A DNA stretch of 64,000 nucleotides from Streptomyces sp. NBC_01216 (GTDB lineage Bacteria; Actinomycetota; Actinomycetes; Streptomycetales; Streptomycetaceae): assembly GCF_035994945.1 (NCBI RefSeq), contig NZ_CP108677.1, forward strand, positions 4,712,001-4,776,000, given 5' to 3'. Both the position numbers and the translations under genes were made by a program. This document shows positions 4,161 through 42,428 of this stretch, piece after piece (position 1 is the stretch's first letter; each line of letters opens with the position of its first letter). Below the pieces are notes generated by a model. That model did no database searches. It was not told where the DNA came from and worked only from the letters and a program-made list of their open reading frames with translations.

Positions 4161-5795
4161 TCATCCGCCGTAGTAGTAGGACTCGACGCGCTCAGCCAGA
4201 CCGGCGGCGATGACGTCGCCGAGGGCCTCGTGCGCGAGGATGCTCGACACCGTGGCGTCGATCTTCTGCGTGGGTGACGCCTTGCGGAGCACGTAGCGGT
4301 CCATGGGCCGGGCAGCCGCGCGCGTGTTGGCGATGTGCGCCTCGGTGATCGGGCACCCGTCGTGCGTGAAGCTCGATCCGTCACTGTTCCGTTTGACGAC
4401 GTCGGTCTTCAGCCGCTCGGCAGCCGAGTGCATCTGGATGATGCGTCGCGTGTGCCAGCGGATGACGCGCTCCTCGCCGTACTTGTCCACCCACTCGTCG
4501 ACCTCGGTCTCCCAGTACGGCGGATCCGCGTACAGCCGCACCACGTCGTACCGGTGCATCAGCTGATCCATCGCGGCCCGGACTTCCGCCCTGGGCACCT
4601 GCCCGTCGTAGTCCTCCGGGTTCCAGATCGTCGGCTCGTCGTTCGGCCCGTACACGGGCGTGAACTGGTAGCCGTCCATGGTCTCGGCGCGGATCGCAGT
4701 CCAGTCGTCCACGTCCGAGCCGTCGAACCCGAGCACAACCCGAGTCATTGGCCTCACGCGCCGAGGCTTGGCTTTCGCCGCCCACTTCGCCACGTCCAGC
4801 CAGGACGCGGAGCCGGCCACGCACCGGTTGCCGAAGAACCGTTCGGCCTGCGCCGGGTCCTTCTCCATGATCTCGGCCGCCTCAGCCTCAATGGCGTCGA
4901 GGTCCACATGGGCCGACCCGGCGTAGACGATGCTGTGGATCTTCCGGCGCTGCCGCTTGTCCCCGTAGGACAGCGACTTGGGCGCCTGCGGGTGATACCG
5001 GAAGATGTCGCGCGCCTTCGCCTCACTGGTGGTCTGCGCCACCGACTGCTCGGAGGGATCCCACCCGTTCGTCGTCTCCATCGACCGGCCACCCATACCT
5101 GCCGTACCGCGCCGCTGGGTCTCGGCGACACGGCGCAGTTTGTTTGCCGCGTTGTATAGGCCGGTCTCGTCCTGGAGGGCGAAGATGATCGGGTTACCGA
5201 GGCGGGACAGAGCTGAGGACGTGACGACGTCGATGCGCCCGTCGTCGCCGACTCGAGTGAACTCCTCGCCCGCGGTCATCATCTCGGTGAGCGGACCGCG
5301 CTTCACCATCGAGCGGAGCGGCCGGTAGACGTTGGCGACCTGGTCCTCGGATGTCGCCGTGAGCTGGATCAGCGGCGTCGGCCACGGCGTGCCCATCGGC
5401 TCGCCAGGCTCGTAGTCGTACCACCAGCCGCAGCCGCAGCCGTGCTCCGAGCACCGGTAGCGTTCGCCGCCCTTGGCCCACCCGTCGAACACCACGGGGC
5501 CAGCGGCCTCGGCAAGCACGATGGTGGCGGACCACGGACCCTTCCCGGTCTTCTGCGGTGCGACGACCTGCGAGCGCCGGTAGTGGAACGCGGGCGCGAG
5601 CTGGCCGACCCTGGCGTCCGGGCGCACGCGGTAGTGGTTGACGGTGCACCACAGCTGCCACGGGTACAGCTCCATGCGCTCACCGGCGCGGAAGCCGTCC
5701 GGCACCGGACAGTGCTCCTCGATCCAGTCCGGAGCGATCCATAGCGTGGGGAAATCAACGACGAACTCGGCGCCCGCCTCAGCCACCTTCGCCAC
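4161..5795 (-). CDS. Terminase large subunit
   Basis: 544 aa. The packaging motor: an ATPase followed by a nuclease. The ATPase part has 'APQKTGKGPWSA' as Walker A and a later acidic strand 'IIFALQDETGLY' as Walker B. The nuclease part starts near 'RVVLGFDGSDVDDW' (catalytic Asp) and continues with 'VVRLYADPPYW'. An insertion after Walker A carries 'CSEHGCGCGWW', possibly a small metal site. The first 17 nt overlap the end of terS. Confident as TerL; the packaging mechanism (cos or pac) is not settled by the sequence, although the adjacent HNH gene favours cos. Confidence 0.88.
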   Translation of the reverse strand: MAKVAEAGAEFVVDFPTLWIAPDWIEEHCPVPDGFRAGERMELYPWQLWCTVNHYRVRPDARVGQLAPAFHYRRSQVVAPQKTGKGPWSATIVLAEAAGPVVFDGWAKGGERYRCSEHGCGCGWWYDYEPGEPMGTPWPTPLIQLTATSEDQVANVYRPLRSMVKRGPLTEMMTAGEEFTRVGDDGRIDVVTSSALSRLGNPIIFALQDETGLYNAANKLRRVAETQRRGTAGMGGRSMETTNGWDPSEQSVAQTTSEAKARDIFRYHPQAPKSLSYGDKRQRRKIHSIVYAGSAHVDLDAIEAEAAEIMEKDPAQAERFFGNRCVAGSASWLDVAKWAAKAKPRRVRPMTRVVLGFDGSDVDDWTAIRAETMDGYQFTPVYGPNDEPTIWNPEDYDGQVPRAEVRAAMDQLMHRYDVVRLYADPPYWETEVDEWVDKYGEERVIRWHTRRIIQMHSAAERLKTDVVKRNSDGSSFTHDGCPITEAHIANTRAAARPMDRYVLRKASPTQKIDATVSSILAHEALGDVIAAGLAERVESYYYGG

Positions 5796-7430: not shown

Positions 7431-8549
7431 TTACGCGGGTTCGGGGCCGATGTTTTCCAGGCGGAGGCGCCAGGGGTAGAGGGTGTGGGCGTAGACGGTG
7501 CCTGCGCTGGTGCCGGAGTGGGCGAGGGCGATGGTGGTGTTCCCGGAGCCGTCGATGTGCCCGGCGCCGACGGTGAACATCTCGCCGCTGGTCGCCTTCG
7601 AGAACGCGGTGCTCGGGTACATGGCGGGGTTGCCCTCGGCGAGGGGGCTGGACGTCTCCGAGGCCGCGTACTCCGCGATGGAGCCGGCGCTGTCCAGGAG
7701 CACCCAGTCGAGGAAGTGGGCGCCGGCGTACATGAATCGGCCGTACACCTTGATGCGATCCCCGGCCGCCGCGGCGATGGAGGCTTTCAGCTGGGTTCCG
7801 GCGGAGGTCTGCACGATGGCCCAGGGGGTGGTGGAGGGCAGGCCGGACAGATTGTCGTCGGTGATGCGGACGCTGGCGGTGGTGATGCTGCTGCCTCCGC
7901 CGATGTCATCGAACCGGCTGTCGTCGCCTGCTGCGACGGTGCCGGCGGTGGTGCCGACCGGTAGGAGGGCGGCGTCGCCGAGGCCGAGGGCGGTGCGCGC
8001 GGCGGATGCGTCGGTGAGGTCGGTCAGGTTGTTGCTCTGTGCGAGGAACGCGTTATCGGCGTATGCCCGGTCGCCGTGTGGGTCGGTCGCCTCCGTGTGC
8101 GTCGTGACGGCGCCCGACTGTTCGGCGCCCACGTCGGCGTAGGTGAGGACGACGACGCCAGCCTGCCCGTTGACAGAGGACACGGCGCCGCTTCCAGCGT
8201 CTCCGCCGTCGGGGGCGGGAACGGGGATGAGGGTGGAGATGTCGACGGTGCCGGTGCCGGTGATGTAGGCCCAGAATCGCTGTACGGGGGCGCCGAGGGG
8301 CTCGATGCTGATGCGCCAGCGCCACCCGGCGGGGCCGATGCCGGCAGCGTCGTTGGGGAGGATGGTGGCGGTGAAGGTGCCGTCGGTGATGTCGACGGTG
8401 CCGCCGCCTGGGTAGATCGCGGAGCGGCTGGTGTCGACGAGGTAGGTGGAGGGTGTGAGGACGACGCGGCCGTTGTAGCCGGTGCCTGCGAGGGCGGAGG
8501 GGAGGGTGCCGGTGAGGGTGATGGTGGGGGTGCCTGTGGGGAAGGTCAT
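7431..8549 (-). CDS. Tail-fibre / receptor-binding-like protein
   Basis: 372 aa from the ATG at 8549, which has GGAGGTG nine nt upstream; the 40 residues before it are Pro/His/Arg-rich and not real. Residues about 1-120 look like a beta-sandwich (ITLTGTLPSALAGTGYNGRVVLTPSTYLVD...). Residues about 135-155 carry the tail-fibre hallmark 'VSSVNGQAGVVVLTYADVGA', followed by a linker with an Asn-Asn-Leu-Thr-Asp-Leu motif. The C-terminal 150 residues could be a receptor-binding or carbohydrate-binding fold. It is unusual that it lies before the terminase genes rather than in the tail module. Confidence 0.65.
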   Translation of the reverse strand: MTFPTGTPTITLTGTLPSALAGTGYNGRVVLTPSTYLVDTSRSAIYPGGGTVDITDGTFTATILPNDAAGIGPAGWRWRISIEPLGAPVQRFWAYITGTGTVDISTLIPVPAPDGGDAGSGAVSSVNGQAGVVVLTYADVGAEQSGAVTTHTEATDPHGDRAYADNAFLAQSNNLTDLTDASAARTALGLGDAALLPVGTTAGTVAAGDDSRFDDIGGGSSITTASVRITDDNLSGLPSTTPWAIVQTSAGTQLKASIAAAAGDRIKVYGRFMYAGAHFLDWVLLDSAGSIAEYAASETSSPLAEGNPAMYPSTAFSKATSGEMFTVGAGHIDGSGNTTIALAHSGTSAGTVYAHTLYPWRLRLENIGPEPA

Positions 8550-8689: not shown

Positions 8690-8717
8690 GCCCCGCCGGG
8701 CGCTGTTCCGGCGGGGC
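8690..8717 (-). terminator. Terminator of the Spd-like operon
   Basis: GCCCCGCCGG (8690-8699) pairs perfectly with CCGGCGGGGC (8708-8717) around an 8-nt loop. It begins 58 bp after the last gene of the 11191-8776 operon. Between it and 8549 are two near-identical 16-nt copies of TCCGGGCATGaCGGAG, the first starting near 8571, of unknown meaning. Confidence 0.55.
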
Positions 8718-8775: not shown

Positions 8776-8898
8776 CTACGGCTTCTTCGGGGGCGGTGGG
8801 GGAGGTGTCTGCTGGCGGTTGGCGGCGGCCTGCTGCTGGCTGGCCTGGTTCCGTTCGCGGAGTTCCTGGATGGACATGGTGGTCTTGAAGTCGCCCAT
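8776..8898 (-). CDS. 40-aa coupled microprotein with polyproline tail
   Basis: MGDFKTTMSIQELRERNQ, then a Gln/Ala-rich helix, then a run of six prolines and a KKP end. The start overlaps the previous stop as TGATG, the same coupling used throughout this operon, which is the main reason to believe it is translated. No known family. The polyproline tail could stall ribosomes without EF-P or bind a partner protein. Confidence 0.55.
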   Translation of the reverse strand: MGDFKTTMSIQELRERNQASQQQAAANRQQTPPPPPPKKP

Positions 8899-9530
8899 CA
8901 GGTGCTCCTCGCGGGGGTCTTGGTGTGGCGGCGTTGGGTTTCGGTGGGGTCGGTGACGACGAGCCCGGCGTGGCCGATGGTGGCTACACGCAACCCCTTC
9001 TCGGGTCCCTCTTCCGGGCTGTTGTTGGTGTTGGTGTTGGTGTCTGACCTGCACAAACAACCGGGCTCGTGGTCGGTCGAGAGTGGGGGGATGTCGTCGT
9101 GGTGGACGCCGGGCCCGTTCTTCCCGCCCGCGCGGACGCCACTGCGGATGGGGATGCCGGCCTCGTCGAGCAGGCGGCGGACGGCCTTCGTGTCGGGTAG
9201 CCCGGCATGGTTCTTGAGGTCGGTGAGCAGGACGTGCTGGCCGCCCTTGCTGAGGGCGTGGAGGGCGTCGACGACTTCGATGTGGTCCTCGGCCTCTGGC
9301 TCGTCTGTGGTGTGGCTGCGGCGTCTGGTGGCCCAGGTGCGGGCCCGGCGGATGCCGGCGGTGGTGAGCAGCCCGGCGGCGTAGTACGCGGTCTCCGGGA
9401 CGGTGACGGCGATCGTCCCGGCAGCCGCGACGCCGATCACGAGTAGACATCCCTTGGCGGCGCGCTCGCTGCGCTGCTCCTCGGCGTCCGGCTGCTCCTC
9501 CCCCGTGTCGGGGGTCGTGGTGTCGTCCAT
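8898..9530 (-). CDS. Membrane-anchored winged-helix-like protein (Spd-type operon)
   Basis: 210 aa from the ATG at 9530. An acidic N-terminus of about 25 residues is followed by a hydrophobic segment (GCLLVIGVAAAGTIAVTV..., roughly residues 27-60). Then comes a region that reads like a winged helix: 'EVVDALHALSKGGQHVLLTDLKNHAGLPDTKAVRRLLDEAGIPIRSGVR'. The C-terminus is Thr/Asn-rich and disordered. Both ends overlap neighbours as TGATG. The combination of TM segment and DNA-binding-like domain in a small coupled operon resembles spread genes of Streptomyces conjugative elements. This assignment is by layout, not by a recognised family signature. Confidence 0.6.
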   Translation of the reverse strand: MDDTTTPDTGEEQPDAEEQRSERAAKGCLLVIGVAAAGTIAVTVPETAYYAAGLLTTAGIRRARTWATRRRSHTTDEPEAEDHIEVVDALHALSKGGQHVLLTDLKNHAGLPDTKAVRRLLDEAGIPIRSGVRAGGKNGPGVHHDDIPPLSTDHEPGCLCRSDTNTNTNNSPEEGPEKGLRVATIGHAGLVVTDPTETQRRHTKTPARST

Positions 9531-9615
9531 CAGAAGTGCGTCGTGATCGGGGAGCCGAGGGCGTTCACCGCGGAGGCGAGGGGCACGGCGGCGATGCCTG
9601 CGATGGTGCCGGCCC
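9530..9615 (-). other. -1-frame C-terminal extension of the membrane protein
   Basis: Re-reading the last G of GGG (9615-9613) as the first base of GCC gives AGTIAGIAAVPLASAVNALG and then SPITTHF, ending in TGA whose A is the first base of the next gene's ATG at 9530. Every other junction in this operon is TGATG, so this frame is the ancestral C-terminus. Either one G was lost from a GGGG run (mutation or sequencing error) or there is a programmed -1 shift on the GGGCC site. Confidence 0.6.
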
Positions 9616-10020
9616 GGAGAGGGCTCCGGCAATGATCTTCCAGGCGGGGATTTTCTTGCGGGCCCACAGCAGCAGGGCGACCATCACGACGGTGAGCAGG
9701 AAGAGGACAACGTAGCCGCCGGAGTCGAGGACGAGGGGGGTGGCGCGGGTGATGTCGCGGTCCTGTCCGTCGACTCCCCAGACGAGGCCGATGTGGCCGG
9801 CGAAATTGCCTGCCCAGATGCCGAGCCAGGTGATGGCGCCGAGTGCGGAGACGGAGTTGTAGGCGGAGAGGGCGGCGAGCATGCCGTAGATGAGAGCGAA
9901 AACGAAGGGGATGAGGGCGGTCCAGCGGCCTGCTTCCTTGAACCACCAGCGGATGGCGAAGGCGACGATGATGGCGAGTCCGCAGGAAACCCCGCCGAGG
10001 CTGATCACGGTGTACTGCAT
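9565..10020 (-). CDS. Polytopic membrane protein, apparently frameshifted
   Basis: 151 aa as read without a shift. Four TM segments are clear: about residues 4-26, 33-54, 60-82 and 101-122 (GGYVVLFLLTVVMVALLLW). After 'KKIPAWKIIAGALSG' the frame turns into an unlikely PAPSQASPPCPSPPR end. The -1 frame continues with a natural hydrophobic segment and ends at 9530 with the TGATG coupling typical of the operon. So the working product is probably about 163 aa. Small multi-TM proteins of this type occur among Spd proteins of actinomycete mobile elements. Confidence 0.6.
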   Translation of the reverse strand: MQYTVISLGGVSCGLAIIVAFAIRWWFKEAGRWTALIPFVFALIYGMLAALSAYNSVSALGAITWLGIWAGNFAGHIGLVWGVDGQDRDITRATPLVLDSGGYVVLFLLTVVMVALLLWARKKIPAWKIIAGALSGPAPSQASPPCPSPPR

Positions 10021-10922
10021 CAGGTGTTCCTCCGGGCTTCGCGCAGGTATCGCTTGGCGGTGGCGGGGCTGACGGACAGGGCTTCCTCGACCTGGGCGGC
10101 GGTGAGCCCGGGGTCCTGAGCCAGGAGCTCAGCGACCTTCCCGATGGCCTCGACGCGCTGAGCCGACTGGGCGGAGGTGTGGGCGGAGAACCCGAACGTG
10201 GCGGGCTGCTGGGCCGGGGGCTCAGCGGTGTTGACCAGGGACGATGCCACGCCGGTTGTGGGGCTGAGCGTGGGGGGCTCGGTCGTGTGAGCCAGGGGCT
10301 CAGCCGGGAGCTCATCGGGCTCAGCGGGGCTGAGCGCGAGGGGGGTGCTCACGGTGAGCTCGGCGCGCAGCTCGATGCGGTCGCGGATCATCTGCGCGTG
10401 GGCGCGGTCGCGGGCGCCTGTGATCCGGGCCTGCTGCTGGATCCGCTCGATGACCGCGTCGGCCTGCTGCTGGTCGATGCTCCGCTGAGCCTGGTTGAGC
10501 CGGGCCTGGTACTGGCCGTCGCGGATGACGTCGTTGATGGCGTCCTCCTGCTCTGGGGTGAGCGCGGACGGGTCACGGAGGACGATGAGGGCGATGCTGC
10601 CGACCGTCTTGCCGACGAGGACGACGAACGGGCCCGCGATGGCCTGGGCGACGGACTGCTTGTCGATGCCGTGGAGGACGAGGAGGAAGCCGACGCCGAC
10701 GGCGATGATCCATCCGGCGGCGATGGCGATGCGGCCACCGCGGCGCTGGTGCTCGGCCCACATGACAGTGATCCAGCCGATGTCGCCGGCGATGGCGACG
10801 GAGAGGCCGAAGGGGCCGGAGTTCATGAGGTCGGTGATGGCGTAGGCGGACCAGAGGAGGGAGAGGCCGGCGAGGGTGTAGGCGCCGTACAGGATGGGTG
10901 GCACCTTGGGGAGGCGGGGCAT
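10020..10922 (-). CDS. DUF2637/SpdB-like membrane protein with C-terminal HTH
   Basis: 300 aa from the ATG at 10922. Four TM helices lie at about residues 9-31, 38-56, 64-85 and 92-115. Next is a Gln/Arg-rich coiled coil (about 125-175), a long Pro/Thr linker (about 185-245) and a C-terminal helix-turn-helix: 'VEAIGKVAELLAQDPGLTAAQVEEALSVSPATAKRYLREARR'. This is the architecture of DUF2637 proteins of Streptomyces integrative conjugative elements, where they are thought to help intramycelial spread. Inside a phage arm with terminase and capsid genes it is out of place. TGATG overlaps at both ends. Confidence 0.7.
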   Translation of the reverse strand: MPRLPKVPPILYGAYTLAGLSLLWSAYAITDLMNSGPFGLSVAIAGDIGWITVMWAEHQRRGGRIAIAAGWIIAVGVGFLLVLHGIDKQSVAQAIAGPFVVLVGKTVGSIALIVLRDPSALTPEQEDAINDVIRDGQYQARLNQAQRSIDQQQADAVIERIQQQARITGARDRAHAQMIRDRIELRAELTVSTPLALSPAEPDELPAEPLAHTTEPPTLSPTTGVASSLVNTAEPPAQQPATFGFSAHTSAQSAQRVEAIGKVAELLAQDPGLTAAQVEEALSVSPATAKRYLREARRNT

Positions 10923-11191
10923 CAGGCAACGGCTCCTTCGGCGATGAGGCGGAGCCTGGCGGCGTACTCGGCGCGGGTGTCCTTGGGGCGGATCGGTGGG
11001 AGAGCCGCGACGAGGGCGTGTTCGGCGGTCTCGGCGGCTTCGGTGGGGCCGTGGGCGTGCTCGGCGACGATGAGGGCTTGGGCGAGGGCGAGGGGTTCGC
11101 TCATGGCGTGGTTGGCGCGGCGTGCGACGAGACGGTCGGCGAGTGCGGTGAGGAGGGTGTGGACGTTGGGGGGTTGGTCGATACGCTGCAT
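10922..11191 (-). CDS. Small helical protein, first gene of Spd-like operon
   Basis: 89 aa from the ATG at 11191, with GGAG nine nt upstream; the extra 19 upstream residues of the open frame are Pro/Gly-rich and skipped. It is predicted almost all helical (VHTLLTALADRLVARRANHAMSEPLALAQALIVAEHA...). The stop overlaps the DUF2637 gene start as TGATG. Similar small genes stand at this place in actinomycete conjugative elements, but I do not recognise a function. Confidence 0.6.
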   Translation of the reverse strand: MQRIDQPPNVHTLLTALADRLVARRANHAMSEPLALAQALIVAEHAHGPTEAAETAEHALVAALPPIRPKDTRAEYAARLRLIAEGAVA

Positions 11192-11223: not shown

Positions 11224-11260
11224 CGCCCCCGGCCGGGCTTCCAGACACCGGCCGGGGGCG
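11224..11260. terminator. Perfect 13-bp GC hairpin in a divergent promoter region
   Basis: CGCCCCCGGCCGG (11224-11236) and CCGGCCGGGGGCG (11248-11260) pair perfectly around an 11-nt loop. It lies between the Spd-like operon start (11191, minus) and the 26-bp palindrome (11289). For minus transcripts it would be in the leader, so attenuation is possible. On the plus strand it is followed by CTTTG. Confidence 0.5.
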
Positions 11261-11288: not shown

Positions 11289-11314
11289 ACTTCCTTGTTT
11301 TAAAACAAGGAAGT
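11289..11314. promoter_or_regulatory. Perfect 26-bp palindrome, probable operator
   Basis: ACTTCCTTGTTTT followed directly by AAAACAAGGAAGT, with no loop and no mismatch. It is AT-rich against a background near 70% GC. It ends 15 bp before the ATG of the plus-strand HTH gene (11330) and lies about 100 bp upstream of the minus-strand operon at 11191, so it can control both. The HTH protein encoded next door is the simplest candidate ligand. Confidence 0.65.
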
Positions 11315-11329
11315 TGAGAGGATGGGGGC

Positions 11330-11653
11330 ATGCCCAACTCCCCTGAGGGAGACGACGTGCAGGCGAGAGGAGGCCCGGACATGGTGACGTTCCCGGAGAT
11401 CCCGGATCGGCTGGAGCAGGCGCAACTGAAGCGGTTGACCGTCCAGCGCGTCCGGCAGCTTGCCGAGACGGATCCGGACTGGCCGATCCCGCTGGACCAG
11501 GCGCCGAAGGTCGGCCGGATGCGGCTCTTCGACTGGCACGTCCTGGAGCCGTACTTCCGCAACCGGAAGTCGCGGCAGGGGCAGCGAACGGACCGCCCAA
11601 GAGCAAGGGAGACCCCTGGTGACGCGAGTAGCCCAGACGCAGCAGGCAGCTAA
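11330..11653 (+). CDS. Small HTH DNA-binding protein (excisionase/MerR-like)
   Basis: 107 aa. GAGAGGA stands 7 nt before the ATG. Residues about 28-75 read as a winged HTH of the AlpA/excisionase type: 'LKRLTVQRVRQLAETDPDWPIPL...VGRMRLFDWHVLEPYFRNRK'. The last 35 nt overlap the GTG start of the next gene. It is one of only a few plus-strand genes in the prophage and sits right behind a perfect palindrome, which suggests autoregulation. It may control the GIY-YIG partner and the divergent Spd-like operon. Confidence 0.65.
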   Translation: MPNSPEGDDVQARGGPDMVTFPEIPDRLEQAQLKRLTVQRVRQLAETDPDWPIPLDQAPKVGRMRLFDWHVLEPYFRNRKSRQGQRTDRPRARETPGDASSPDAAGS

Positions 11654-12182
11654 GTCAGACCGCCCGGCTGCTGTCTACCGCTACTGGTCCGACAGCGGCG
11701 AGCTGTTGTACGTCGGCTCCGCCTACGATCCGAGCGAGCGGGCGAAGACCCACAAGAGCAAGGAGTGGTGGGCGTCCGTTGCTCGTCGAACGGACGAGTG
11801 GCACGACAACCGGCAGGCGGCCTATGCGGCGGAGACGGAGGCGATCGCCGCCGAGAGCCCTGCCGCGAACAAGATCAGCGGTCCGGGAACTGTCGCGCTC
11901 CCGGCGCCTAAGGTGCGTTCTCAGGTGCGCCTCATCAGTCCCGATGAGGCCGAGGAGATCTTCGCGCAGCTGGAAGGCGAGCGACCAGAGGTCCGATTCA
12001 GGGCCTGCACCTTCCTGATGGAGTGTCTGGACTACACCGCCCAGGTCGTCCGACGGCAGACCGTGCGGGATCTGCGGGCGCGGGGTATGGCGTACCGGCA
12101 GATCGCGAAGGAGCTAGGCATCAGCTTCGGTCGGGTGCGGCAGATCCTCGCGGAGGAAGTGCCCCCGCCGGCCGCCGAGTAG
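11619..12182 (+). CDS. GIY-YIG nuclease-domain protein with C-terminal HTH
   Basis: 187 aa from GTG at 11619, preceded by AAGGGAG; the ATG far upstream in the open frame gives only Arg-rich sequence. Residues about 16-85 form a GIY-YIG domain: 'AAVYRYWSDSGELLYVGSAY', the Arg in 'DPSERAKTH', the Glu in 'YAAETEAI', and the final Asn in 'PAANKI'. Residues about 145-180 form a sigma-type HTH (DLRARGMAYRQIAKELGISFGRVRQIL). A nuclease joined to a DNA-binding helix could cut or nick a specific site; homing, defence or DNA-processing roles are all open. Confidence 0.72.
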   Translation: MTRVAQTQQAAKSDRPAAVYRYWSDSGELLYVGSAYDPSERAKTHKSKEWWASVARRTDEWHDNRQAAYAAETEAIAAESPAANKISGPGTVALPAPKVRSQVRLISPDEAEEIFAQLEGERPEVRFRACTFLMECLDYTAQVVRRQTVRDLRARGMAYRQIAKELGISFGRVRQILAEEVPPPAAE

Positions 12183-14990: not shown

Positions 14991-15764
14991 TCAGGCGGCA
15001 TCGGTGAAGCAGCCGCAGCCGCCTTCGTCGAACAGGTCAAGCTGGCCGCGCTGCTCGATCCGTTCACGCAGCGCGGCCAGCGTGAGCGGCTTCGTCGTGC
15101 CACCGGTGCGGTCGCGGAGGAACGACACGTCCTTGTCGAGCAGCGTCCGCATCCGGGCCTCAGCGGCCTCCGCCCGGGCGTATCGGTCCGGAAAGACCTC
15201 CAGGAGCCGCGCCCACTGCGCCTGGCCGCCCTTTACGCAGGCGCCCCCGCAGTTGTTGTGGGCGAAGCCGAGCCGGTAGAGGCGGGGCACAGGCAGGCCG
15301 GCTGCGCGGGCCTCGGCGAGCAGCTGCTGCTTGTGGCGGATCGGGGGGCGGGTGAGCGGGGCGTCGACGGTCCAGGGCGCCCAGCCACGGACGATGCCGG
15401 GCAGGCGCTCCTCCTCGGTCCAGTCGATGCCGACGTACAGCGTCGTCTGCGAGGGGTCGGTGTTGTCGGTCAGCCAGTCCCTGCACGGTCCCTGCTTGAG
15501 GAGGTGGCTGCACTGGGCGAGGCGTGTGTTGCCGAGCCAGCGCTTGTCCTCGAAGACCTGCCAGGGGTCACGACCGTCGGCGACTCGGGTGATCGGGACG
15601 CCGAGCTGTTCGCTGGCCGCGCTGTTGAAGGCGTAGAGGTCTTCGTCCTCGATGAGGGTGTCGGCGAACAGCAGGGTGACGCTGGCCGTGCCGCGTTCGG
15701 CGATGACGTGGCGTGCGGTGGCCCAGGAGGTGATGCCCCCGGACCACATGACTACGTGCTTCAT
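14991..15764 (-). CDS. PAPS-reductase-like PP-loop ATPase
   Basis: 257 aa. The N-terminal 'VVMWSGGITSWATARHV' is a PP-loop (SGGxxS) as in PAPS reductases, TilS and DndC. The middle has 'LFADTLIEDEDLYAF', and the C-terminal half has 'FAHNNCGGACVKGGQAQW' plus a 'GGCGC' tail, Cys residues that could hold a metal or carry sulphur. Phages often encode this family without a sulphate pathway, so nucleic-acid modification or sulphur transfer is more likely than assimilatory reduction. It lies in the same operon as the C5 methyltransferase. Confidence 0.72.
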   Translation of the reverse strand: MKHVVMWSGGITSWATARHVIAERGTASVTLLFADTLIEDEDLYAFNSAASEQLGVPITRVADGRDPWQVFEDKRWLGNTRLAQCSHLLKQGPCRDWLTDNTDPSQTTLYVGIDWTEEERLPGIVRGWAPWTVDAPLTRPPIRHKQQLLAEARAAGLPVPRLYRLGFAHNNCGGACVKGGQAQWARLLEVFPDRYARAEAAEARMRTLLDKDVSFLRDRTGGTTKPLTLAALRERIEQRGQLDLFDEGGCGCFTDAA

Positions 15765-27026: not shown

Positions 27027-27275
27027 ATGGCCGAAAGTGAAGGAATGTCGTTGGCGGGCATGCGCATCGAGGTGGCACCCGCAGACGCCATGCCAGAGGG
27101 CCGCCTGGTGGTCCCCGTCATCGACAGGGCGGGGGAGGTGGTCTGGGTCGTACGCGAGGACAAGATGCCCGACGACCTCCGCCGAGAGTTCAACGCCCAC
27201 TTCGAGAACATCACCCACAACCACCTCCTCGACCCGCTGACAGACGAGAAGCCCCCGCCTGGTCACCCGCACTAG
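27027..27275 (+). CDS. Small protein convergent with integrase (82 aa)
   Basis: ATG at 27027 after GGGGG. 'IEVAPADAMPEGRLVVPVIDRAGEVVWVVREDKMPDDLRREFNAHFENITHNHL' is a plausible folded domain with beta strands then a helix. The stop TAG (27273-27275) overlaps the integrase stop (27274-27272) on the other strand. Antisense overlap at the ends could link repressor-side expression to integrase level. Function unknown. Confidence 0.55.
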   Translation: MAESEGMSLAGMRIEVAPADAMPEGRLVVPVIDRAGEVVWVVREDKMPDDLRREFNAHFENITHNHLLDPLTDEKPPPGHPH

Positions 27276-28528
27276 GCGCTGCGCACCGACCGCAGCCCCG
27301 AACCCTGCACCGGCACCCCCATGACCGCCTCCACGGCCACTGCGATGTCGTCGTCGAGACCCTGCACCAGATGCCCGTACCTGTCCACCGTCGTCTGAAT
27401 GCTCTCGTGCCCCAGCCGGATTTGAATCGCCGGCAGAGGGATCCGCGCAGCGATCAGCCACGACACATGCGTGTGCCGAAGGTCATGAAGCCGGGGCCGC
27501 TTCGGCAGCCCCTTCTCCATCGCCTTCTGCACCGCGGGCAGCCATTTTCGGTTGTAGTAGTTCGCGTGCCGCCAGGCCCCGCCCATCGCGGCCCGGAACA
27601 CGTAGTCATCCGGCTTTCGCCCGGCCACGTGCCGCCGCACCAACTCCACCTGCGCCGGCGCGAGACGCAGCAGGCGCCTCGCCTTCTTCGTCTTCGGCGG
27701 CCCCAGGTAGTACGCCCCGCCTGGTGCGCCTTTCTTCGCCTTCTTCCACGCCCGCTGGATGCTTGCTGACGGCCGGTCGCCAGTCAGGTTCAGGTCGGAC
27801 ACCTTCAGCGCCGCTGCCTCGCTCCACCGCATCCCGGTGCCGACGAGCCAGTCAGCCAGGTCCCGGGCGTCCGGGTCGGTGATCTCCGCGGCGATTCGCT
27901 GGTACTCGTCGCGCTCCAGGAAAGTCATCTCCTCGTCCGTGTGGTCGTCCACGCGGGGGAGTCGGGTCTTGGCGCAGCAGTTCTTCGTGCGGAGCTGCGG
28001 CTCGGCCTCCACGGCGGCCTGGACGACGCAGTAGAGGAGCCCGTGGCGGTTGCGGATGGACTTGGGGTCGGCCTCGCGGCGCAGCCACTTCTCTGGGTCG
28101 TCAGGGTCCCGTTCGCCGTCCTCCTCTGTGCGCACCCAGTCGGACACGTCGTCCTGGGTGAGGGTGCAGATCGTCGCCTCGCGTTCCACGCCGGCCGGGT
28201 CGAGGTGCTTGATCAGAGAGAAGTGGATGCGGATCTCGCGGTGGTAGTCCTCGCGGGTCCGGTCGTCGATGCCGGTGAGTCGGTCGACGTAGCGGCTTGC
28301 GTAGGCCACGAGGGGCATGTCGCCGGGAGTCTTCGGCTGCTCGACGAAGCCTTCGCCGCGTACCCAGCCGTGCGGCCAGCGGCCACCGTGAGCCTCCACG
28401 AGGCCCTTGAACTGATCGGCCGCCGGGCGCTCGCCGAAGTTCTCCGTCTGCCATGTGCCGTCCTGGCGCCACTTCACCTGGAAGGTGCAGGTGCCGTCCT
28501 TCTTGGGCCGTTCCACGATGCTCGCCAT
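27272..28528 (-). CDS. int: Tyrosine integrase
   Basis: 418 aa from the ATG at 28528 (the open frame starts 35 residues earlier, but MASIVERPKKDGTCTFQVKW is the normal beginning). An N-terminal arm-binding beta-sheet is followed by a SAM-like core-binding helix region and the catalytic domain. Catalytic residues: R234 (TGMRWSE), H348 and R351 (HDLRHTH), H374 (RLGH), Y384 (DRYGHL). The gene starts 110 bp from the 3' end of tRNA-His, as expected for site-specific integration there. Confidence 0.9.
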   Translation of the reverse strand: MASIVERPKKDGTCTFQVKWRQDGTWQTENFGERPAADQFKGLVEAHGGRWPHGWVRGEGFVEQPKTPGDMPLVAYASRYVDRLTGIDDRTREDYHREIRIHFSLIKHLDPAGVEREATICTLTQDDVSDWVRTEEDGERDPDDPEKWLRREADPKSIRNRHGLLYCVVQAAVEAEPQLRTKNCCAKTRLPRVDDHTDEEMTFLERDEYQRIAAEITDPDARDLADWLVGTGMRWSEAAALKVSDLNLTGDRPSASIQRAWKKAKKGAPGGAYYLGPPKTKKARRLLRLAPAQVELVRRHVAGRKPDDYVFRAAMGGAWRHANYYNRKWLPAVQKAMEKGLPKRPRLHDLRHTHVSWLIAARIPLPAIQIRLGHESIQTTVDRYGHLVQGLDDDIAVAVEAVMGVPVQGSGLRSVRSA

Positions 28529-28637
28529 GGCCCGACGATACGACCGGCGGATGGCATTGTGTTCCCGTTGTGTTCCCAAGGATTCGAGCACGACGAAGGG
28601 CTGACCTGTTCTCACAGGCCAGCCCTTGATCATTCAG
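28529..28637. other. Probable prophage end (att junction) beside tRNA-His
   Basis: The 109 bp between integrase start and tRNA 3' end hold the integrase leader and, next to or inside the tRNA 3' part, one attachment core. The core cannot be delimited because its partner copy is outside the window. TTCTCACAGGCC and the CCA-less tRNA end at 28638 are the nearest landmarks. Confidence 0.5.
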
Positions 28638-28711
28638 GGTGAGTAACGGGACTCGAACCCGCGACATCCTGGACCACAACCAGGTGCTCTACCATCTGAG
28701 CTATACCCACC
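28638..28711 (-). tRNA. tRNA-His (GTG)
   Basis: A cloverleaf can be drawn on the minus strand: acceptor GTGGGTA / TACTCAC, D arm AGCTCAGATGGTAGAGC, anticodon stem CCTGG / CCAGG with loop TTGTGGT (anticodon GTG), T arm GCGGG-TTCGAGT-CCCGT. The base at 28711 gives G-1 opposite discriminator C73, the histidine identity pair. CCA is not encoded. It is the likely prophage integration target, with its 3' end facing the integrase. Confidence 0.95.
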
Positions 28712-37434: not shown

Positions 37435-39207
37435 CTATCGGGCGAACCGCGCGATCGGGTTCACCAGGTCGCCGACGAGCTGGAGGGCCCCGGACGGGTC
37501 CGCCAGATCCACCATCTGCCGGTTGTCGCGGAGCTGCAGCCGGTTGAGGGCGGACAGCGCGAAGGTCTCGGCGAACATGTCGTACCGCGCGTACTTGTCC
37601 GCCATCTCCGGCACCGACTCCTGGTAGCCGCGCACGCACTCCGCGACCGTCCGCCAGAAGCCGTCCTCGTCCAGGACGCCCTCGGCCGCCAGGGTGGCCG
37701 CCAGGAACCGGAAGAAGCAGTCGAAGACGTCCGTGAAGACCGAGAGCAGCCGCATGTCCTCGGGGACGTCGGCGCGGACCCGCTCCACCGCCGGCGGCAG
37801 GACCGCGTCCGGGTCCATGACGCAGATCTCCTCGGCGATGTCCTTGAAGACGGCGCGCGCGACCGCGCCCCGCTCGTCGAGCACCAGGATGACGTTCTCG
37901 CCGTGCGGCATGTACGCCAGGTCGTACGCGTAGAAGCTGTGCAGCACCGGAAGCAGGTACGCGTCCAGGTAGCCGCGCAGCCACTGCGCGGGGGCGAGTC
38001 CCGAGCCCTCGATCAGGGCGCCCGCGAAGGACGCGCCCGTGTGGTCGACATGGAGCAGCGAGGCCATCGTGGCGAGCCGCTCGCCCGGCTCCAGGGACGC
38101 CACCGGCGACTCGCGCCAGAGCGCGGCGAGCATCTTGCGGTAGGGGGAGTACCGGTCGGTGGCGGCCTCGTACTCCAGGTGCCGGTAGCCGACCGCCGCC
38201 CGCTCGCGGATGATCGAGAAGCGGGCCGCCTTCAGGACGGGGTCGGCCTCGACCAACCCGGCCAGCCAGTCGTTGATCGCCGGGGTGGCCTCCATGTAGG
38301 CGGCCGAGAGCCCTCGCATGAAGCCCATGTTGAGCACGGACAGGGCCGTCTTGACATAGTGCTTCTCCGGCGCGGAGGTGTTGAAGAAGGTCCGGATGGA
38401 CTGCTGCGCCAGATAGGCGTCGTCGCCCTCGCCCAGGTAGACCAGCCGCTCCTGGGCGACCTCGGCGGCGAAGGTGACCGACAGTTTGTTCCACCACTGC
38501 CAGGGGTGCGCCGGGATCAGCAGGTAGTCGGCCGGGTCCAGGCCCCGCCCGGTGAGCGTGGCGGCGAAGCCTTCGACGGCCCGGTCGCCCAGCTCGTCCC
38601 GGACGAAGGTCTCGTAGGCGAGACCGGCGCCGGCGGTGAAGGTGGCGCGGTCACGGTGCGCCGCCAGCCAGATCAGGCGGACCTCGCTCGCCGCCTCCGG
38701 GGCGTACGCGCGGAACTCGTCCACGCCGAAGCCGAGCCGGCCGTTGTTGGCGACGAAACAGGGATGGCCTTCGGTCATCCCGGTCTCGATCGCCTGGAAG
38801 CCGGCGCGCGCCAGCACGGCCGCCGGGACGAGCGGCTTGCTCGCCTTGAAGGCCGTCCCGGCCAGGGTGGAGGAGATCTCCTCCAGGTACACGGGCAGGA
38901 CCTCGTCGCTCAGCCCCAGCGCGCCGCGCAGCTCGGTGATGAAGCGGAGCGCGTCGAGCGGGAGCTGTTCGCCGTCGCGGTGGCAGCTGACGGACTCGGG
39001 ACGGACCTGCCAGTGGTCGAGCGCGAAGCGGTCGGCGGTGAAGCGGTACTCGGTGGCGCCGTCGTCGCCGAGTACCCGGTAGCGGTCCTCGCCGAGCTCC
39101 TGCGGGTCGATCAGCCGTTCGTGGGCGAACTCGGCCAGGCCCTTGCGGATCAGTGCCCGGTTGGCGTCGGCCCAGCGTGCGGGGGTGAGGTGGGCGACGG
39201 GGTTCAC
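37435..39207 (-). CDS. desD: DesD, NIS-type desferrioxamine synthetase
   Basis: 590 aa from GTG at 39207. IucA/IucC family enzyme that uses ATP to join N-hydroxy-N-succinylcadaverine units and close the ring of desferrioxamine E (or linear B). Family motifs: 'GHPCFVANNGRLGFGVDEFRAYAPE' (NIS nucleotide-binding), 'LLIPAHPWQWWNKL', 'STAPEKHYVKTAL'-like 'NTSAPEKHYVKTALSVLNMGFMRG', and 'MPHGENVILVLDERG'. The GTG overlaps the desC stop as GTGA. Last gene of the iron-regulated desABCD operon. Confidence 0.95.
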   Translation of the reverse strand: MNPVAHLTPARWADANRALIRKGLAEFAHERLIDPQELGEDRYRVLGDDGATEYRFTADRFALDHWQVRPESVSCHRDGEQLPLDALRFITELRGALGLSDEVLPVYLEEISSTLAGTAFKASKPLVPAAVLARAGFQAIETGMTEGHPCFVANNGRLGFGVDEFRAYAPEAASEVRLIWLAAHRDRATFTAGAGLAYETFVRDELGDRAVEGFAATLTGRGLDPADYLLIPAHPWQWWNKLSVTFAAEVAQERLVYLGEGDDAYLAQQSIRTFFNTSAPEKHYVKTALSVLNMGFMRGLSAAYMEATPAINDWLAGLVEADPVLKAARFSIIRERAAVGYRHLEYEAATDRYSPYRKMLAALWRESPVASLEPGERLATMASLLHVDHTGASFAGALIEGSGLAPAQWLRGYLDAYLLPVLHSFYAYDLAYMPHGENVILVLDERGAVARAVFKDIAEEICVMDPDAVLPPAVERVRADVPEDMRLLSVFTDVFDCFFRFLAATLAAEGVLDEDGFWRTVAECVRGYQESVPEMADKYARYDMFAETFALSALNRLQLRDNRQMVDLADPSGALQLVGDLVNPIARFAR

Positions 39208-39734
39208 GGGGCGGCTCCTACGGCGGCGTCGAACTGCTCGCGGGTGCAGAAGCTGAGCAGTGCCCGCTTCTCCGGCTTTTGGATCTCGCGCTCCGGCACG
39301 AAACCGACGGCCTCGTTGAGCGCGTGGACGGCCGTGTTGCGCACGTCCGGCTCGACGACGACCCGCGCGGTCGCCGGGTCGGCGAACAGCTCCCGCATCA
39401 CGGCGGTGATCACCCCGCGGGTGAAGCCGTGGACGGGCTTGTCGGTGGGGGCGACCAGGAAGTGCATGCCGACGTCCCCGGGCCGCGGTGCGTACAGGCC
39501 GGCCAGTTCCACGTGCCGGGGGTCGTAGCGCTCCATGAGGACGGCGGGCTCGCCGTCGGCCAGGCCGATGAACGCGTCGTGGTGCGGGTGCGCGGCTATC
39601 GCCATGTACGCGCGCTCCACGTCCTGGAGCCGCGCGTCCCCCATCATCCAGAAGGCGGACTTGGGATGGGTGACCCAGGTGTGGACCAGTTCGGCGTCGG
39701 CCGTCGGGTCGAGGGGGCGGAAGCTGACGGTCAT
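39204..39734 (-). CDS. desC: DesC, N-hydroxycadaverine acyltransferase
   Basis: 176 aa. GNAT-type acyltransferase (IucB/RhbD-like) that adds succinyl or acetyl to N-hydroxycadaverine. Visible: '[30 protein letters not shown]', '[63 protein letters not shown]' (acetyl-CoA loop and C-terminal strand). Starts inside the desB stop (ATGA) and ends inside the desD start (GTGA), so the three are coupled. Confidence 0.95.
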
Positions 39735-41002
39735 ACGGCGAACTCCTGGAACGCGATGGTCTTCTCGACGGGGTAGTGCTCGCGGCCCAGCATCTCCGCG
39801 ATGATGCGGGCGTTGCGGTACGCGCCCATGCCCAGGTCGGGCGAGGTGACGGAGTGGGTGTGCACACCGGCGTTCTGCAGGAAGACGCCCCGGCCGGTCG
39901 TGTCGACCGCGTAGTTGCGCGCCACGTCGAAGCGGCCCCGGCCGTCCCAGGTGATCCGGTCGCGCAGCGGCTCCAGGAAGGCGGGGACGGTGTAGCGGTA
40001 GCCGGTGGCGAGGATCAGGCCCTCGGTCTCCACGGTGAAGTCCTTCCGCTGCTCCTCCTGGTGGAAGCCCAGGGTGTACGTGCCGTCCGTGGCGTCGTAC
40101 GCGGCGGAGCGGAGGGCGGAGTTGGTGAGCAGGCGGGTGGGGACCGGGCCCACCAGGTTCTTCTGGTACAGCAGGTCGAAGACGGCGTCGATCAGGGCGC
40201 CGTCGATGCCCTTGAAGAGGCTCTTCTGCCCGCTCTCCAGGCGGTAGCGGGTCTCCTCGGGCAGGGCGTGGAAGTAGTCCACGTACTCCGGCGAGGTCAT
40301 CTCCAGGGTGAGCTTGGTGTACTCCAGCGGGAAGAAGCGCGGGGAGCGGGTGATCCAGTTCAGCCGGTAGCCGTGGACGTCGATCTCGGAGAGGAGGTCG
40401 TAGTAGATCTCGGCCGCGCTCTGGCCGCTGCCGACCAGGGTGATCGACTTCTTGGCCTGGAGGGCCGCCTTGTTCGGCAGGTAGGCCGAGTTGTGGATCA
40501 GGTCGCCGCCGAGGCCGCGGCAGGCTTCGGGAAGGTGGGGCGGAGTGCCCGTGCCGAGCACGATCCGACGGGCCCGGAACGTTTCTCCGCCCTCGGTGCG
40601 CACCACGTACAGGTCCTCGGACTCCTCGTGGGCGACGGAGGTGACCGTGGTCGAGAAGCGTATGGAGGAGAGCTTTCCGGCCGCCCAGCGGCAGTAGTCG
40701 TCGTACTCCGTCCGCAGCGGGTAGAAGTTCTCGCGGATGTAGAAGGAGTACAGCCGCCCCTTCTCCTTGAGGTAGTTGAGGAAGGAGTACGGCGAGGTCG
40801 GGTCGGCCATGGTGACCAGGTCGGACATGAACGGGGTCTGGAGGTGGGCGCCTTCGAGGAACATGCCCGAGTGCCATGAGAAGTCCGGCTTCGACTCCAG
40901 GAAGAGGCCGTTCAGTTCGTCGATGGGCTCCGTCAGGCAGGCGAGCCCGAGATTGAACGGACCGAGCCCGATGCCGATGAGATCAAGAGGCTGCGTGGAC
41001 AA
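39731..41002 (-). CDS. desB: DesB, cadaverine N-monooxygenase
   Basis: 423 aa from TTG at 41002 with GGAG upstream. Flavin-dependent N-hydroxylating monooxygenase (IucD family). FAD site '[17 protein letters not shown]', NADPH site '[19 protein letters not shown]', and the C-terminal '[18 protein letters not shown]' (ATGY motif) are present. It hydroxylates cadaverine made by DesA. The rare TTG start lies 20 nt inside the end of desA, which would set a lower, coupled translation rate. Confidence 0.95.
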
Positions 41003-42428
41003 GGTTCTCTCCCAGGTACTGCTCGGCGTGGCCGGCTATCAGATCGAGGACGGCGGCGATGTCGGCCACGGTCGTCTCGGGGTTGAGCAGGGTGAACTTC
41101 AGGTACTGGCGGCCGTCGACCTTCGTTCCGGCGACGACGGCCTCGCCCGAGGCGAACAGCGCCTTGCGGGCGTGGAGGTTGGCCCGGTCGATCTCGGCGG
41201 GGGAGGTCACGGCCTCGGGGACGTAGCGGTAGACGAGGGTCGACAGCCGCGGCTCGACGACGACCTCGAAGCGCGAGTCGCGGCGGAGCAGGTCCCAGCC
41301 GGCCCCGGCCAGGTCGCAGACCTCGTCGAAGAGCCGGCCGACGCCGTCGGCGCCCATCACGCGCAGGGTCATCCACAGTTTCAGGGCGTCGAAGCGGCGC
41401 GTCGTCTGGAGGGACTTGTCGACCTGGTTGGGGATCAGTTCCTCGACGCTGCGCCGGGGGTTGAGATAGTCCGCGTGGTACGTCGCGTGCCGTAGCGCGT
41501 GGCGGTCGCGGACCAGGACGGCGGAGGAACTGACCGGCTGGAAGAAGGACTTGTGGTAGTCGACGGTGACCGAGTCGGCGCGCTCGATGCCGTCCAGGAG
41601 GTTTCGGCGGGTGCGCGAGGCGAGTAGGCCGCAGCCGTAGGCGGCGTCCACGTGCATCCAGGCGCCGTACTCGGCGGCCAGGGCGGCGATCTCGGGCAGG
41701 GGATCGAGGGAACCGAAGTCCGTGGTGCCGGCGGTGGCGACGATCGCCATGGGGATCAGTCCCTCGGCGCGGCAGGTCTCCAGTTCGGCGGCGAGGACGA
41801 CCGACTGCATGCGCTTGTCGCGGTCGACGGGGACGGAGACGACGGCGTCCCGGCCGAGTCCGAGGAGCGTGGCGGACTTCTGGACGCTGAAGTGGCTGCA
41901 CTCCGAGGCGAAGATCCGCAGTCTGCCCAGGTCCGCGGTGCCGGACTCCTCGCGGGCCAGCAGCAGGGCCTGGAGGTTGGACTGGGTACCGCCGCTGGTG
42001 AACACGCCGTCCGCGGCCGGTCCGAGACCGATGCGGGCGGTGGTCCAGTCGATCAGTTTCCGCTCGATGAGGGTGCCGCCGGCGCTCTGGTCCCAGGTGT
42101 CGAGCGAGCTGTTGACGGCCGAGAGGACGGCCTCGCCGAGGACGGCCGGGATCACCACCGGGCAGTTGAGGTGGCCCAGGTAACGGGGGTGGTGGAAGTA
42201 GACGGCGTCGCGGAGGTAGACGTTCTCCAGTTCGTCGAGAGCCGCGGAGGTGTCTCCCAGGGGCTTGTCGAGGTCGACGGCGTCGATCGCCGGGGCGAGT
42301 TCGGCGGGGGTGACACCCGTGAACGGGCGCCGCGTCGTGGCGAGTCTGTCCGCCACCCGCTCGACTCCCTCGGTGACGGAGCGTCGATAGCTCTCCGCCG
42401 TGGCGTCGTTGAGCAGGTGCGAGCGCAT
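40983..42428 (-). CDS. desA: DesA, lysine decarboxylase of siderophore synthesis
   Basis: 481 aa from ATG at 42428 with GGAGG upstream; the longer frame crosses the iron box and is not used. PLP group II decarboxylase: '[19 protein letters not shown]', '[35 protein letters not shown]' and the PLP-lysine '[16 protein letters not shown]'. It makes cadaverine from lysine, the first step to desferrioxamines. Its promoter region holds a perfect iron box. Confidence 0.96.

Follow-up and report, generated by a model that had tools for sequence, protein, structure and literature searches.

A probable Spd module in a Streptomyces prophage, its recurrence in viral contigs and its interchange with plasmid transfer genes

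In a 64,000-nucleotide stretch of the 7.7 Mb genome of Streptomyces sp. NBC_01216 (G000:C1:4712001-4776000; hereafter the window, whose numbering is used unless another locus is named), an integrated phage carries an operon of five minus-strand genes, A to E, which very probably forms a module of the Spd type. Judged by profile comparison, the membrane protein B belongs to a family homologous with the genuine SpdB of plasmid pIJ101, and the gene orders compared here show B, C and D to be a conserved unit of many prophage and viral contigs, and the module to interchange with plasmid transfer (tra) genes. We suggest that a temperate phage lacking its own DNA pump has in it an Spd apparatus, a reading for and against which the evidence seems to us about evenly balanced. 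L and G numbers are the locus and genome labels of the analysis.

Composition of the module and the identity of B

A first-pass annotation of this DNA had described five minus-strand genes at 8776-11191. All five are present, and TGATG stands at 4/4 of their junctions; from the first gene of the operon onwards they are (aa, amino acids; TM, transmembrane; HTH, helix-turn-helix; E, expectation value):

10922..11191, minus strand: gene A, small soluble protein of 89 aa, first gene of the operon (phrog_28251, E 3e-4)
10020..10922, minus strand: gene B, SpdB-family protein of 300 aa with four predicted TM helices, a helical stalk, a disordered linker and a C-terminal HTH tail of type I (AlphaFold and profiles)
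9565..10020, minus strand: gene C, multi-TM protein of 151 aa as it stands, its frame disrupted near residue 135 (phrog_16379, E 2.4e-6; alignment)
8898..9530, minus strand: gene D, protein of 210 aa with an N-terminal TM region, a predicted winged helix at 81-142, a conserved GNGPGVH-like motif and an Asn-rich tail (AlphaFold; phrog_34550, E 6e-24; alignment)
8776..8898, minus strand: gene E, small proline-rich protein of 40 aa (open reading frame and TGATG overlap with D)

The annotated layout holds for the second multi-TM protein (C, with three predicted TM segments as it stands), for the TM protein with a winged-helix-like domain (D, in which AlphaFold gives the winged helix confidently, with a predicted local distance difference test score of 84-96 for the block) and for the two small proteins, A and E. 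For B, the AlphaFold model has membrane helices at residues 9-32, 36-58, 63-88 and 91-115, a long helix at 123-192 and an HTH at 251-298, so that four TM helices and a DNA-binding part, a combination by which SpdB proteins are recognized, are predicted in one protein. Comparison with solved structures turned up nothing significant for any of B, C and D; for the winged helix of D, a Foldseek search of the PDB returned weak matches and no close relative (best E 0.039). The significant PHROG matches of C and D are all to families of unknown function, and those of B are weak HTH matches. Many B homologues bear the precomputed family label PF27080. D has 133 homologues at E<=0.001 and retains 20 invariant positions across 53 aligned sequences.

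The TGA at the C/D junction is not C's own stop, as the open frame of C ends 35 bp before it. Because the usual C-terminus of the family, up to the junction TGA, can be read in another frame as far as the TGATG of D (window 9530-9640), we regard C as frame-disrupted in this strain; in its 21 aligned relatives, of 162-168 aa, the frame runs on past residue 135. Either real decay or a sequencing error could account for the disruption.

The B-family profile matched pIJ101 SpdB, for which the protein annotated as plasmid transfer protein SpdB served as reference, at E 1.4e-9 across 136 columns, as opposed to 0.013 for the reversed SpdB, 0.022 for the top-scoring block shuffle (n=30), 0.067 for the highest scorer among 26 further multi-TM proteins of these loci and 0.31 for the gene C family. 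An independent tool gave E 5.4e-6 for the family against the same protein, and window B alone matched it with 27% identity over 140 aa (E 6e-4, a single comparison). Homology to a genetically defined SpdB is thus found for B; an operon with a TraB-type gene, another mark of the SpdB family, is found for its relatives in pCQ3 and pCQ4 and is lacking in the window prophage. The resemblance to pIJ101 extends to protein and gene layout: a homologous four-TM domain (about 136 columns) leads into a long stretch and then a C-terminal domain, and the small TM-protein gene after spdB has its counterpart in a 46-59-aa two-TM gene in 10/28 of the contexts first collected here. The module differs in residing in a phage without tra genes.

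The label DUF2637/SpdB-like given to B on first pass therefore stands in its second half, with four predicted TM helices, the HTH and the SpdB homology behind it, and was rejected in its first, since the Pfam DUF2637 hidden Markov model (PF10935) gives nothing for it at E<=1. The host genome has eight DUF2637 matches elsewhere and none in the window region at E<=0.001. Against our own DUF2637 profile, the B profile alone scored E 0.078; extended by the divergent c2b subgroup it scored 1.7e-4 (reversed, 0.3; best of 30 shuffles, 0.064), a distant link that runs only via the extended B family. DUF2637 proteins do, however, stand in the place of B in prophages L049, L055 and L057 (Pfam) and in nine IMG/VR contigs (own profile). 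PHROGs assigns the L049 protein to phrog_733, 'excisionase' (E 2.6e-25); this label is probably wrong. Another protein of similar design is phiC31 gp25, with a TM domain, a Pro/Glu linker and a C-terminus resembling an HTH (Foldseek E 2.5e-3; DUF2637 by profile comparison at E 0.0015), but its match to the window B family is not significant (0.3-0.5). The gp25/gp26 pair lies at L088:6292-7639; gp25 is a possible distant member and a lead only, and gp26 is GntR-like by reading only.

Recurrence and exchange with plasmid transfer genes

Within the genus, a window-type B was found in 9/295 sampled genomes (E<=1e-10) and D in 16/392 (E<=1e-8), the window's own genome being counted in both. A first set of 28 contexts contained C and D together in 16, with D directly after C in 16/16. 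For a second set, IMG/VR was scanned with the B and C alignments, yielding 45 distinct new contigs whose hosts are not given. B-slot genes were detected in 40 of these, C in 32 and D in 38; D directly followed C in 29/29 contigs that have the two (these comprise 25 different C proteins, one of which is the same as at an earlier locus), and the detected B, C and D genes lay on one strand in 45/45. A terminase-cluster gene followed 4 to 15 genes further on, within the fetched stretch, in 30/45, as judged by our own clusters, two of which have members above the Pfam terminase cut-off and two only below. The B slot itself varies (n=40), being filled by the window type or c2b in 24 contigs, DUF2637 by our own profile in nine, the c30 type resembling gp73 of plasmid pZL12 in two and unassigned proteins in five; 2/40 genes repeat first-set loci (L103 = L025, L136 = L051) and there are four near-duplicate pairs. 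As both sets were picked by B, C or D, these frequencies are not valid for phages at large.

Named phages were searched by tblastn. Window B, window C and the C of L051 found no match there, D matched TurkishDelight only (two records), and the B of pSAM1 matched seven large Streptomyces phage records. Such phages (184-200 kb) carry a gene for a B-like membrane protein, e.g., EhyElimayoE gp105 (L074:5941-7050); comparison of three neighboring membrane-protein genes in that region revealed no relative of C or D.

The first-pass annotation had taken the module for a separately controlled cargo of the phage. With the same order recurring across prophages and viral contigs by the dozen, mostly with a terminase gene further on, it is no stray cargo, and the wide occurrence that was named in advance as a ground for doubt has indeed been found, though without a known role for the order, given the PHROG matches above. 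Nor would a phage-borne transfer system be new, since Streptomyces plasmid-phages with transfer genes were already known, as shown by pZL12 (2010, as cited in the parts of PMC3583192 and PMC4487206 available to us).

A link with plasmid transfer regions is evident as well. In pCQ4 and pCQ3 a relative of B is located directly upstream of traA and traB, the pCQ4 TraB scoring 847.7 bits against an NCBIfam cut-off of 800; the B proteins of L026 and L019 are 69% (over 203 aa) and 50% (over 300 aa) identical to that of pCQ4. In pSAM1, a plasmid predicted to contain prophage-like sequence (according to the accessible part of PMC11302927), and in three relatives, five or six genes separate the start of the B relative from that of a following gene whose annotation is conjugative DNA transfer or FtsK, with a terminase beyond in one; terminase genes downstream are present in pCQ4, the NBC_01238 plasmid and element L029. 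The gp73 of pZL12 is a homologue of the c30 proteins that fill the B slot in L051-L053 and L063 (best E 2.8e-11) and is two genes away from gp71, annotated as FtsK/SpoIIIE-like; in L029 the B is of the window type and its partner is a Tra protein sharing 81% identity with gp71, so that two B scaffolds occupy the same place beside the same pump. In G048, which is ICE-like (ICE, integrative conjugative element), the neighbors of a B relative are a resolvase-type recombinase and an ATPase that matches TraB weakly (E 6.9e-6, far under the cut-off).

The converse exchange was seen in 3/45 of the new contigs. In L104, L106 and L109, a gene matching our own TraB profile (E 2.2e-10, 7.9e-10 and 5.8e-56) follows B in place of C and D, and these contigs have 3 to 8 genes in common with C- or D-bearing contigs at 32-92% identity. 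The L109 protein reaches 711.8 bits against the NCBIfam TraB cut-off of 800, which is below it but full-length; that of L106 matches FtsK at E 6.6e-5, and that of L104, 90% identical to it, has only an HTH family as its library match. PF01580 left FtsK unmatched in pZL12, pSAM1 and TurkishDelight and was too insensitive, so our own profile A1, which includes pSAM1 and pZL12 sequences, was used instead. The transfer regions of pCQ3, pCQ4, pSAM1 and pZL12 thus resemble the module in having a B-slot protein, a divergent regulator and small genes; they differ in having a TraB or FtsK-like gene where C and D are found here, and in a regulator mostly annotated as GntR family. The set of genes by which an actinomycete integrative and conjugative element is recognized (int, rep and FtsK-type tra together) is incomplete in the prophage, which has an integrase and no tra.

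Intragenic sites, control region and surroundings

The coding sequence of B contains a conspicuous cluster of short sites:

10103..10501, both orientations: nine TGAGCC/GGCTCA sites within gene B, 9/26 of the copies in the 40 kb prophage

At most five occurred in 200 shuffles keeping protein and codon use, so that the repeats cluster beyond codon and peptide constraint, the property sought here for a locus of the clt or TraB recognition sequence (TRS) kind. When 264 genes of the loci were ranked by site excess, the B-slot genes (n=24) held ranks 1-5, 7, 8, 10 and 11, the rest of them lying between 15 and 95. In the first set GGCTCA was enriched in 7/7 genes with type-I tails, spread over three scaffold groups, and the site motif goes with the exchangeable HTH tail rather than with the membrane scaffold. 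We defined the tail types on the first set and fixed the motif before applying both to the second, where the type-I motif occurred in 6/6 type-I genes vs 3/34 others; leaving out first-set repeats and near-duplicates, the counts are 6/6 vs 3/28 (hypergeometric ~6e-5 by our own arithmetic, which ignores residual kinship). The three exceptions are DUF2637 genes with unassigned tails. Assignment at E 1e-4 left 5/40 tails unassigned, and the type-I call for L118 rests on 34% identity. Tail V is accompanied by CGCATC/GCATCA in the pSAM1-type plasmids and in 2/2 new contigs. As the type-I sites (202 in 16 genes) occur in either orientation and fall into five strand-and-frame classes, the peptide does not account for them.

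Two known systems offer partial parallels. The SpdA2/sps pair of pIJ101 likewise consists of a plasmid DNA-binding protein and a site inside its own gene (in the part of PMC4170104 available), but sps is palindromic whereas the sites here are of 6 bp in both orientations, and SpdA2 is another kind of protein. The clt/TRS repeats bound by TraB are also short-repeat clusters serving as cis sites for transfer (accessible part of PMC3583192); the candidate sites described here differ in lying within the B gene and co-varying with the B tail, in an element without TraB. Recognition of the sites by the tail also has an alternative in co-inheritance, because linker and tail may have moved together.

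The module appears to have its own control elements:

11289..11314: perfect 26-bp palindrome between the divergently transcribed genes, a candidate operator (unique in the window, 0 expected)
11330..11653, plus strand: divergent putative regulator of 107 aa (HTH by comparison and reading; no Pfam or other family match)
11224..11260, minus strand: strong 5' leader hairpin with 13-bp exact arms and an 11-nt loop, possible attenuator (-36.4 kcal/mol, z -3.7)
8690..8717, minus strand: GC-rich hairpin past gene E with a 10-bp stem, terminator-like without a T run (-28.6 kcal/mol, z -3.2)

The separate control claimed on first pass is supported by the regulator and the operator-like palindrome; a consensus scan of the module strand found neither a sigma-70-type promoter nor a T-run terminator. 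Among the new contigs, a palindrome (arms >=8, loop <=4) was present in 14/29 divergent gaps vs 41/900 random 240-bp stretches. L138 has a near-identical palindrome together with a regulator 83% identical over 71 aa to that of the window; more distant regulators (36-41%) in L089, L124, L136 and L051 pair with another common palindrome, and the L093 regulator (46%) is found with none. Regulators of the c41 type pair with GTGTGGACA-type palindromes in 3/3 cases of the first set and not in L104, and those of the c5 type with several differing palindromes or none. These comparisons support a dedicated regulator and operator-like site of the module, which vary together.

The prophage measures about 41.3 kb and is bounded by direct repeats of at least 60 bp, one at 28588 and the other outside the window, 12,723 bases to its left. 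Further features are:

27272..28528, minus strand: tyrosine integrase of the prophage (Phage_integrase, E 9.6e-19)
28637-28710: tRNA-His, adjoining the integrase and the right repeat
7431..8549, minus strand: tail-fibre-like gene beyond E, flanking the module (phrog_16641, E 5e-7)
11619..12182, plus strand: GIY-YIG endonuclease-like protein of 187 aa with a C-terminal HTH (PHROG endonuclease, E 6.6e-15; Pfam GIY-YIG at 21.6 bits, slightly below the cut-off)

The tail-fibre-like neighbor had been recognized correctly on first pass. The phage terminase also announced there exists as a terminase-like gene at 4161-5795, weakly backed: its L049 homologue scores 17.5 bits against the TerL_nuclease cut-off of 24, and a PDB search with the window protein gave no match. 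A GIY-YIG domain label (PF10544/PF13455) is attached to several B homologues (P0011, P0020, P0021 and P0028), and in L029 and L079 a GIY-YIG gene directly precedes B. By reading only, the prophage gene at 14991-15764 has the look of the phosphoadenosine phosphosulfate reductase/ATP-pyrophosphatase family, and four genes at 37435-42428 resemble a desferrioxamine-type siderophore cluster.

Possible functions

We consider it likely that B serves as a membrane tether for DNA; that its role lies in mycelial spread is suggested more tentatively. In a pump-lacking Spd apparatus of this kind, the divergent regulator would repress the operon at the 26-bp palindrome and, upon its release, B would insert into the membrane with its stalk and HTH tail reaching the cytoplasm, where the tail would bind the short-site cluster in the B gene and tether the phage genome at the membrane. 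The multi-TM protein C and the membrane-anchored winged helix of D would complete the complex, which would pass or position phage DNA at hyphal cross-walls, allowing mycelial spread without lysis; the pump would perhaps be supplied by the host or by a co-resident FtsK/TraB-type protein. Precedents for tethering by B and for binding of sites in its own gene are provided by SpdB2 of pSVH1, an oligomerising membrane protein that binds DNA non-specifically and interacts with TraB, and by SpdA2 (both from the available part of PMC4170104, which states that, SpdB2 apart, nothing further was available on the spd genes). The presence of relatives of plasmid spread proteins, in a gene order fixed across many related viruses, suggests that these viruses, too, may move their DNA from compartment to compartment without particles. 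A bolder proposal, possible but in our view doubtful, is a pump-less modular SpdB machine with exchangeable scaffolds (SpdB-like, DUF2637 or pZL12 gp73-like), swappable HTH tails reading sites in their own genes, and C and D replacing TraB, which would move prophage or replicating phage DNA between compartments without virions.

Several observations weigh against the proposed Spd apparatus. Our own profile found no TraB-like gene in the window prophage, the whole L009 and L019 contigs or TurkishDelight, the search in other contigs being confined to the fetched stretches. Relatives of C and D were not detected in the plasmid tra operons examined, and D went unmatched in 72,556 plasmid records, in which C was not searched. 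None of the five window proteins matched PF10935 at E<=1 (gathering cut-off 22.8 bits). With several type II and IV tails the sites are weak or missing, and there are genes that lack them altogether; enrichment of CGCATC extends to one type-III gene, so that the hexamer is not strictly tail-specific; and pIJ101 spdB, in contrast to the B gene, lacks a site cluster, with pZL12 gp73 and phiC31 gp25 showing marginal ones only. Finally, with C frame-disrupted, the copy of the module in this strain may be impaired or partly defective.

An alternative function, which we regard as unlikely, is that of a membrane-anchored organiser of phage replication, partition or packaging, in which B and D tie phage DNA to the membrane within one compartment and no transfer takes place. 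The phi29 protein p16.7 ties phage DNA to the membrane. The position of the module between early and structural genes and the lack of a pump would suit such an organiser, as would two loci in which a gene of about 290-305 aa upstream of the module (gene 2 of L058 and of L064, TurkishDelight) contains the same clustered hexamers as the respective B (CGGACA in L058, GGGGAC in L064), which are perhaps replication iterons. The function of SpdA2/sps of pIJ101, a related one, affects stability and not spread, as given in the accessible part of PMC4170104. On the other hand, B is of the SpdB type, which is coupled to TraB in pCQ3/pCQ4, and TraB/FtsK-like genes replace C and D in related contigs.

The module might also act in superinfection or plasmid exclusion, blocking the entry or spread of other SpdB/TraB elements at the membrane. 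The membrane location, the regulator with its operator-like site, and B scaffolds and HTH tails whose exchange would suit element-specific discrimination are in keeping with this, but the SpdB family forms part of transfer operons, and no exclusion PHROG was obtained for B, C or D apart from a chance-level 'Ren-like exclusion' match of the HTH of B (E 0.27; PADLOC was not searched), which makes this function improbable. We hold it still more improbable that the module is a functionless relic of a tra operon after loss of traB: the missing TraB and the disrupted C could be so explained, whereas order and reading frames are retained across many divergent phages, D keeps its invariant positions and the site cluster is kept while the linker peptides diverge. 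Holin or lysis-accessory proteins, brought to mind by small multi-TM proteins and by an amidase gene few genes downstream of the module in L009 (Amidase_2) and L028 (by reading only), were rejected as highly improbable, as the Amidase_2 endolysin of the prophage (L023:9385-10329, adjoining a 75-aa gene) lies ~18 kb off near the opposite end, B and D carry predicted DNA-binding domains, and no lysis PHROG was found for C or D and no significant one for the module, the holin match of B being at chance level (E 0.67).

In the literature searched, no report was found that describes integrated phages with an SpdB-type module, or spdB genes with site clusters inside them; most subscription papers, including that on pZL12, lay outside the search, which is not proof of absence. 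The phages of mycelial bacteria meet cross-walls within one organism and, if the bolder proposal above holds, they would have a third route of spread beside lysis and vertical inheritance. The intragenic site clusters and operators give direct and cheap predictions of DNA binding, and the module is small enough to serve as a compact system for the long-standing question of how Spd proteins act. An SpdB-type phage module exchangeable with plasmid transfer genes would link the biology of phages with that of conjugation.

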